Source: Volvox africanus (lineage: Eukaryota; Chlorophyta; Chlorophyceae; Chlamydomonadales; Volvocaceae). From it: a DNA stretch of 64,000 nucleotides. Under the pieces are notes generated by a model, which was not told the origin of the DNA, made no database searches, and saw only the letters and a list, made by a program, of their open reading frames with translations. The DNA lies in the NCBI GenBank assembly GCA_030268105.1, contig BSDZ01000008.1:3658001-3722000 (forward strand), read 5' to 3'. Positions 23,401 to 26,400 of the stretch are shown piece after piece (positions within the stretch are counted from its first letter, which is position 1; each line of letters begins with the position of its first letter). The position numbers and the translations under genes are program-made.

Positions 23401-26400
23401 GCGTGGTTGAGGAGGTTTAAGTGGAGCCCTTGCTTCCTTTACCGGAAGGTGTTGAATAAAGGTGCATGATATGGTGATATTGTGCACGCAACACCCCCAT
23501 GCTTCTGCCGCCGGCGATACTCACGACGGCTGGATGAATAATGGCCGAAGCATATAATAAGCGTATAAGCCTATTGCCTATACGCCTATTGCCTATAAGC
23601 CTAATAAGTCGAATCGGGCATTCCTCAACATCATATTTCGGGGCATCAAAATTATATTTTACAAACTCCAAAGTTGCAGTATTAGAGGGATCCTTAATAG
23701 GAAAAATTGAACGCAAAACAGCTTGTAATCCCTTACCTTTTCTTTCAGATTCAGGAATTCCAAGCTGTAAAAAGTTTTCTTCATAAGAATGTTTTTGTAT
23801 CTCAATCAAATTAGGCATTGAAGCTACTAATTTGATTTTACCGAAGTTTTTTCTAACACGCTTACTTGTTTGTAAGGATTGCGCCATATGATCTCCAGAT
23901 ATTTTTATGTTTTTTGTATATTAAATCAGTTATTAATGCAACAAACATCATCGAAAGAAACAACTGTGAAGCTAATTATTTTTAATTAAAAGTAAAACTT
24001 ATTTAAGTATAAATTAATACTACCACCTTTATAAAATCCAAATTATCGGTATGTTTTCTCAATAAAAAAACTTTTCTAAATTTATAGTCCAATTTAACAG
24101 TTTTTGATAGTTTTATACTAAACCTTCTGCAGCTTAACACAATACAAAACTAATTATACCATCTAACTTTAAATTACCTTTCTTTATTTTTTCTTAAATA
24201 AAAAAGCTAAAGCTGCATTTTTCTTGCAAATGTTATTTGAAATAAGAAAGGGTTTGTACTTTAACTTATGCTTGTGGTTTACAAAAGCAATTTTTATAAA
24301 ACACTACAACCTTATTATAAAAGTATGGAAACCTGTTATTTATAAGCCATAAAAATGATTTTAATAGCATTTTTATAAACATAACTAATAACCCACAACT
24401 TTAAAACAAAGATAATTAAGCTTTTCCTAAAATATTATAGCCGATTACAGGAGTTTAGTAACTCATTCCCATAAATCGGCTATAATTAATTACTTTACTT
24501 CTACTTTAGCACCAGCAGCTTCAAGCTTTGCTTTTATATCATCAGCTTCTGCTTTGGAAACTCCTTGTTTCAAAGGTGATGGAGCACCGTCAACTAAATC
24601 TTTCGCCTCTTTCAATCCAAGATTAGTAATAGCTCTAACTACTTTAATTACTTCAATTTCTTTGTCGCCAGCATTTGCTAAAACTACATCAAAATCAGTT
24701 TTTTCAGCTACTGCATCAGCTGCCGCTGCTACCGGAGCTGCTGCTACTGGAGCTGCTGCTGATACTCCCCATTTTTCTTCCAAAAGTTTTGAAAGCTCAG
24801 CAGCTTCTATTACTGTTAAAGCAGAAAGTTCTTCTGCTATTTTTTCTATATTTGCCATAATAAATTACCTCTTTTGACTTTAAAAATTAAAAAATTAACT
24901 ATTCTTTTCTGAATAGGCTTGAATAACCCTAGCAATAGATCCAGCTGGAGCTTGAACAATTCTAGCCAAATTGGCTGCTGGAGCTTGTAGTATACCAACT
25001 ATTTTTCCTCTTAATTGATCAAGAGATGGTAACTTAGCTAATTGTTGCACTTCACCTACATTTAGAATTTTATATTCACTATCCCACCAATAACTTTTAA
25101 ATTATCATTGGCCTTTGTGAATTCAACTACTCCCTTTGCAGCAGCCACTGGATCTTTAGGATAAGCTATTGCAGTTGGCCCAGAAAAAGCTTCAGGATCA
25201 TGTGTTAAATTAACGTTAGTAGCAGCTATCTTAGAAAGTGTATTTTCACTATTTTAAAAGATGCACCATTCTCCCTCAAAGCCTTACGCAAATTTGTAAT
25301 CTGCGAAACTGTAAGCCCATGATAATGGGTAATAATTACCGAATTGATAAATTTTTTCTAACTCTGAAACAAAAGTCTTTTTTTCTGATCTTAGCACCTT
25401 ACACTCTCCAAAAACTTCTACTGTGAAACTGTTGACAAATCAACCCTAAGAGATGGACCCATAGTAGAAGATACATGAATCCTTTTTAAATAAGTTCCTT
25501 TTGCGGCCGCTGGTTTGGCCTTAGTAACAGATTCTATAAAAGCCATAGCATTTTTTAATAAATCGGCATCGGTAAAAGATATTTTGCCAATACCCGCATG
25601 AACTATACCAGCTTTTTCAACCCTATATTCGACTTGACCGCTCTTGGCATTTTTTACCGCCGTTGTGATATCTGCAGTTACAGTACCAAGCTTTGGATTC
25701 GGCATTAACCCCTTTGGCCCTAGAACTCTTGCTACTTGACCGACTACACCCATCATATCAGGCGTACTTATACATACATCAAAATCTATTTTACCAGCTT
25801 TAATATTATCGATAATTTCAGTAGAACCAGCTAGATCGGCACCAGCTGCCTTTGCATCAGCCACCTTATCCTCTTTACAAATTACCGCAACTCTTACATC
25901 TTTACCGGTACCGGCGGGTAAAGAAACCAATCATAATCTATCTGGCATATTGTAAGCAGGTCGGCACCAGACATATCACTTACGTCAACTGTCAGTGTCG
26001 TATTCTGAGAGGCGAGAGCCCTCGTCAAGCCCTGCAAAATTTAAAACAAAAAATCATATTCTGCAAAAACAAATTATATCACTTACGTCGACTGTCAGTG
26101 TCGTATTCTGAAAAAAATCATATTCTTGGTAATTGGCAGACACACACAGGTAGACAGCGTTTCGTTACTGGTTACCCTGGCTACCCTGCCAACTAAAGGC
26201 TGGGCTAATTAGGTATGACAGGCCAGCCAGACCTAATTAGGCATGATTAAACTTAATCAGGCCTTAATTAGCCCTTAATATAGCCAGTTGGCAGGGACGT
26301 AGTGGGCCTCATGTCAATAGCTAGTTGGCAGGGACGTAGTGGGCCTGATGCTGTCGGCGGTTATGCCGTTGATTACATACTACTAGGATAAACAGCACGC

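Follow-up and report, generated by a model that had tools for sequence, protein, structure and literature searches.

A fragment of a Rickettsiaceae genome very probably captured in a nuclear intron of Volvox africanus

The window analysed here, a 64-kb stretch of the Volvox africanus genome, carries between 23619 and 25929 a minus-strand segment of 2311 bp with a GC content of 0.334, against 0.451 for the whole window. It harbors, in bacterial order and all on the minus strand, the 3' part of rplA, rplJ, rplL and the 5' part of rpoB, a gene content proposed in an earlier note on this DNA and upheld by Pfam searches and by alignment to a bacterial MAG. The rplA part, encoding ribosomal protein L1 (25418-25929), is open to its stop codon, matches PF00687 at 2.9e-53 and is 95.9% identical in amino acids to the counterpart on L009, a contig of the Lake Erken MAG 'uncultured Rickettsiales bacterium ErkenSummer_bin-4287'. 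The rplJ gene (L10; 24895-25439, start approximate) is a pseudogene with three deletions relative to the MAG, of 8, 1 and 1 nt, each frameshifting. Pfam recognizes L10 in it at E = 6.4e-10; another L10 piece (0.0026) falls short of the cut-off. The rplL gene (L7/L12; 24490-24858) is whole, with an intact frame (PF00542, 1e-29; PF16320, 9.2e-20). The bacterial rplL-rpoB intergenic spacer (23888-24489), delimited by alignment to the MAG, holds most of the indels of the insert. The rpoB part (23619-23887), about 89 codons, is open and cut by the end of the insert; its frame had no Pfam match and was identified by alignment to the rpoB of L009 (94.4% amino acid identity), which is named by NCBIfam TIGR02013. 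Both ends thus cut a gene, rplA on one side and rpoB on the other, and the proposal of a random fragment captured with its ends in mid-gene stands.

By blastn, the insert is collinear with positions 12272-10002 of L009 along its whole length (85.95% in 2328 columns), without rearrangement and with both intergenic spacers covered. The similarity breaks off abruptly at 23619 and 25929. The earlier note had placed the segment at 23618-25930; its location was right, but its exact ends are replaced by these. No second insert was found beside this one when the 64-kb window was compared with 175 kb of the MAG at E<=1e-3, and an Rfam search of the window found nothing. Other features were observed in the window. 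Two LINE-type retrotransposon frames lie in a row at 35569-42799, the downstream ORF (reverse transcriptase) being 99% identical to V. africanus VaNZ11_015193. A 128-aa frame is repeated at 37056-37439 and 41581-41964, 4.5 kb apart, and very long simple-sequence arrays, with hundreds of bases of one short unit, are present at 1416-2030, 31250-31709, 46712-47292 and 53069-53916.

The insert lies within a host gene that is also on the minus strand. An exon upstream of it (26659-26734), a 48-nt exon with AG and GTAAGT borders (25984-26031) and an exon downstream (EEDDEDD..., 22876-23282, 3' end approximate) are joined exactly and in this order in the V. reticuliferus protein P0122, with 67% identity across the junction. 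The 48-nt exon and the exon order of P0122 place the insert in a phase-0 intron of 2,701 nt (23283-25983), where it starts 54 nt downstream of the donor site. An intron of phase 0 had been recognized before, but its length had been given as 3,376 nt, the 48-nt exon having been overlooked. P0122, the V. reticuliferus orthologue, was found by a protein search with a padded exon query; the same search did not find the 1101-NZ-11 gene model of the host gene itself. VaNZ11_002820 (P0125) is a paralogue (46%). Among the relatives of the host gene are PAS-domain proteins and a protein of Gonium whose name refers to TmcB/TmcC TPR repeats, and the gene appears to be related to TmcB/TmcC-type PAS-domain membrane proteins. 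The insert is presumably spliced out with the intron. In the preceding intron, about 100 bp upstream, the 3' end of the 48-nt exon and the GTAAGT donor that follows it recur at 26075-26110 (CAGAATACGACACTGACAGT...), a small partial exon duplication.

The same site was found in P0121 (Vafri_6876), a protein predicted from another V. africanus assembly, which we infer is probably that of a Japanese strain. Its gene model is unspliced here and runs from the 48-nt exon into the intron, straight over the insertion point. P0121 reads TVD-VSDLSG-D-QYIDYDARFDLLCLYIGL, and this is matched by the two flanks of the window joined with one insert base kept. Because QIDYD and ARFDLL are encoded on opposite sides of the insert, that assembly would be without the insert, and at the protein level of this predicted product the site appears to be empty. 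An indel is present near it, where ten residues stand opposite SG-D-QY. When the flanks are joined, one base is shared at one end; the other end can be read as blunt or as three shared bases plus an added one. The insert junctions show no target duplication. Overlaps of 0-3 nt and no target duplication fit end joining, as read from this one set of junctions.

A protein tree of 21 rows was built from the concatenated rplA, rplL and rpoB pieces, 2 of 22 loci being left out since they had no rpoB match. The insert and L009 are paired with a support of 100/99, which bears out the Rickettsiales origin first proposed for the segment. The next to join them is L010, a MAG labelled Rickettsia sp. bin_208 (98/94), and all three fall inside a clade of nine Rickettsiaceae-type rows (100/99), sister to a group with Rickettsia endosymbionts of arthropods. 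The donor is likely 'Candidatus Megaira', on the basis of this sister position, in a tree without a named Megaira row, and of the known algal hosts. Across the four genes, the insert and the MAG differ at 26, 9 and 121 first, second and third codon positions. Since the differences pile up at third positions, the 14% divergence was mostly acquired in bacteria, under selection. Judged from these substitutions, the donor is another strain than the MAG, and change after capture would amount to at most about 1.6% (9/574 second positions) in addition to the three frameshifts of rplJ. Second-position change in other fragments of the host genome varies widely, with for example 2/442 on contig C46 (two alignments), 9/99 at L097, 11/66 at L102 and 12/57 in one L109 piece. 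This suggests that the fragments were captured at different ages, the samples being small and the genes differing in constraint.

These other fragments were found by searching the host assembly (140,993,249 bases, 126 contigs), which we infer to be the published assembly of V. africanus 1101-NZ-11 from Thailand. The latter is described as 141.0 Mb in 129 contigs, with 197x PacBio coverage and with bacterial-match contigs filtered out (PMC10291315). The insert as query gave 16 matches: itself, seven partial copies on C46, C28, C15, C24, C86, C5 and C100, and eight matches that are not inserts but fall on an alanine-codon tandem array of C4, at the alanine-rich stretch of rplL. The C46 pieces match the MAG at 99.2 and 99.5% and the window insert at 89.5%, and this locus matches the MAG at 99% versus 75% for another Rickettsiaceae MAG, L016. 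For the piece on C28, identity is 97.5% with the window insert and 91.4% with the MAG. As C46 is near the MAG and C28 near the window insert, the captured DNA therefore came from two donor strains or more, which differ by about 10%.

Four 20-kb pieces of the Lake Erken MAG had at least 44, 49, 43 and 41 matches in the host genome, at least 177 in total; these are lower bounds, from the best 40 of 61, 52, 56 and 59 candidates. The matches cover 35,122 host bases on 41 contigs, with a median length of 103 bp and a median identity of 90% (range 73-99%). Among the matches listed, five are longer than 1 kb and the longest has 3,997 bp. At C36:346737-355537, the largest match (4.0 kb at 87%) is accompanied 4 kb off by a second piece from elsewhere on the donor contig. 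Extrapolation to the 1.7 Mb reported for the MAG gives about 3,760 fragments, 0.75 Mb and 0.53% of the genome, an order of magnitude because the four pieces come from contigs of sufficient length and were not chosen at random. Of ten proteins tested from the donor pieces, eight fall into bacterial families at E<=1e-30, one of them an NTP/NDP exchange transporter, and two have no family. Some matches need separate reading. Five of the 177 share the donor stretch L135 14978-15109 (76-80%) and may represent a host gene family or repeat, and two donor stretches occur twice each with equal score (C114/C23; C3 twice), which may be later host duplications.

In control searches of the host genome, a 20-kb sequence of the Lactococcus phage SK1, of like GC content (0.355), had no match. 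A Midichloriaceae MAG sequence of 19.8 kb had 38, of which 31 fall on one alanine-rich repeat of 41-58 bp and six of the remaining seven are loci already found with the Erken MAG, at 68-75%. The Rickettsiaceae MAG L016 had 16 matches, 14 of them at loci already found and at lower identity (67-84%). No contig carries a 20-kb donor piece whole, for the four pieces searched in an assembly prefiltered of bacterial contigs, and a full-length bacterial 16S was not found among the best 5 of 3053 candidates in the host assembly. The symbiont appears to be absent from the assembly, though the published assembly was filtered of bacterial contigs beforehand, so that a resident symbiont is compatible with its absence there. 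Six short bacterial-type SSU rRNA matches were also seen (C86:1730755, C75:875336, C77:3200566, C11:304363 and C76:4636352-4636991), which could be organelle-derived or rickettsial.

In thirteen cases, two matches less than 1 kb apart on the host come from different donor contigs or from donor positions separated by more than 5 kb; 2,000 random placements gave a mean of 0.25 such pairs and a maximum of 3. Within 10 kb there are 30 such pairs, versus a mean of 2.0 and a maximum of 8. The region C86:1514903-1519265 is AT-rich throughout its 4.4 kb (26-38% GC in 200-bp steps) and contains four separate pieces of 85-100 bp matched with a tenth of the MAG; two more donor pieces are located within 2.1 kb beyond it. 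On C13, four pieces of 53-124 bp, at 97-100%, are found within about 5.4 kb. At L093, L100 and L004, pieces of two different donor contigs lie side by side, within 0-10 bp of each other. The donor stretch at C46:106112-107475 (L090, L094) is circularly permuted, its second part preceding its first and the two joined at donor 9789-9791, as if a circle had been cut at that point. The pieces on C100 form a collinear series interrupted by 10.7 kb, across which the donor positions overlap by 6 bases, the pattern that a later insertion would leave. Chained, abutting and permuted pieces would be expected of symbiont DNA that had been broken up and ligated before or during integration.

Several other origins were considered for the insert. 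A mitochondrial or plastid source (numt or nupt) would be natural in that mitochondria are alphaproteobacterial in origin and transfers of organelle DNA are common. It was dropped, and we regard it as having next to no probability: the insert is placed within the Rickettsiaceae in the tree, the bacterial spacer is matched in full, and the 86% nucleotide match to a Rickettsiales MAG extends over both coding and spacer DNA. The donor contigs encode NuoG, NuoL, LysS, HscA, HtpG, an NTP/NDP exchange transporter, RpoB and EF-G, and volvocine mitochondria are not known to have the gene set of the insert, which also counts against a mitochondrial origin. A transferred rplL that is expressed or domesticated would agree with its intact frame on the strand of the host gene and with its few second-position changes. 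However, few changes are equally expected in a young insert, the neighbouring genes are cut or frameshifted, and nuclear rplL genes for organelles exist elsewhere, so that domestication seems very unlikely from the sequence.

It is about as improbable that the segment is an assembly artefact, with a contig of a contaminant or symbiont wrongly joined into one of Volvox. Algal cultures can contain symbiont DNA, but here both flanks are exons of one host gene, rplJ is frameshifted and P0121 shows no interruption at the site. Misjoining cannot produce the recurrent donor fragments of about 100 bp on 41 contigs, and the published assembly rests on 197x PacBio data (PMC10291315). The nuclear location proposed before is supported by the host exons on both sides, by the empty site in P0121 and by the occurrence of the same donor at scores of host loci.

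Capture of a Rickettsiaceae endosymbiont genome fragment in a nuclear intron of V. africanus, where it is now decaying as non-coding DNA, is thus the reading in which we have great confidence. The insert belongs to a known class, the nuclear integrants of endosymbiont DNA. No function is proposed for it, and the best reading is that the captured DNA is mostly functionless. For the genome as a whole, we think it fairly probable that the nuclear DNA is a layered archive of Rickettsiaceae symbiosis, with some 4,000 fragments and 0.75 Mb (0.5%) from at least two strains, captured over a long term and polymorphic within the species, part of it as multi-kilobase concatemers of shreds of about 50-150 bp from unlinked places and some as ligated circles. 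In such a process, symbiont cells or their DNA would be broken down inside the algal cell, and the pieces, often already ligated together and sometimes circularised, would enter the nucleus and be joined into double-strand breaks by end joining. Capture would have been repeated, with at least two donor strains. If the concatemers and circles are real, the alga would break symbiont chromosomes apart and stitch their remains together before or during integration.

In the open literature, which leaves out most subscription journals, nothing was found on rickettsial DNA in the V. africanus genome, and the word stem 'rickettsi' is absent from the main text of PMC10291315. Within the literature searched, DNA transfer from symbionts other than organelles is well documented in animals, whereas for green algae it rested on a region of ca. 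9 kb in V. carteri, and the scale of such integration in an alga seems to be new. In a single algal assembly from long reads there seem to be dated pieces of one bacterial lineage by the thousand; donor strains can be distinguished among them, and one site is empty in another V. africanus assembly. The frequency of infection, the route of symbiont DNA to the nucleus and its joining before integration can now be asked about, and these are the questions asked of early organelle evolution.

In V. carteri, Kawafune et al. (2015) confirmed the one region, of ca. 9 kb, with 16S, murB, ddlB and ftsQ (PMC4324946). Both algae have Rickettsiaceae DNA with truncated genes in the nuclear genome, with at least two rickettsial lineages involved; in V. 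carteri the donor symbiont is absent from the strain (PMC4324946), and in V. africanus it appears to be absent from the filtered assembly. Unlike that case, V. africanus is another species with another operon and at least 177 matches for less than 5% of the donor genome; many of them are shorter than would appear in the V. carteri study, which annotated HSPs at E<=1e-50 (PMC4324946). Wolbachia fossils of about 1 Mb were described in the 169-Mb genome of Dictyocaulus viviparus by Koutsovoulos et al. in 2014 (PMC4046930). There too, short disabled Rickettsiales fragments occur amid host DNA in a genome of similar size (PMC4046930). However, that system is an animal with Wolbachia, with a mean identity of 84.5% to known Wolbachia (PMC4046930), and the present one an alga with Rickettsiaceae, where identities of up to 99% speak for captures that differ widely in age or donor.
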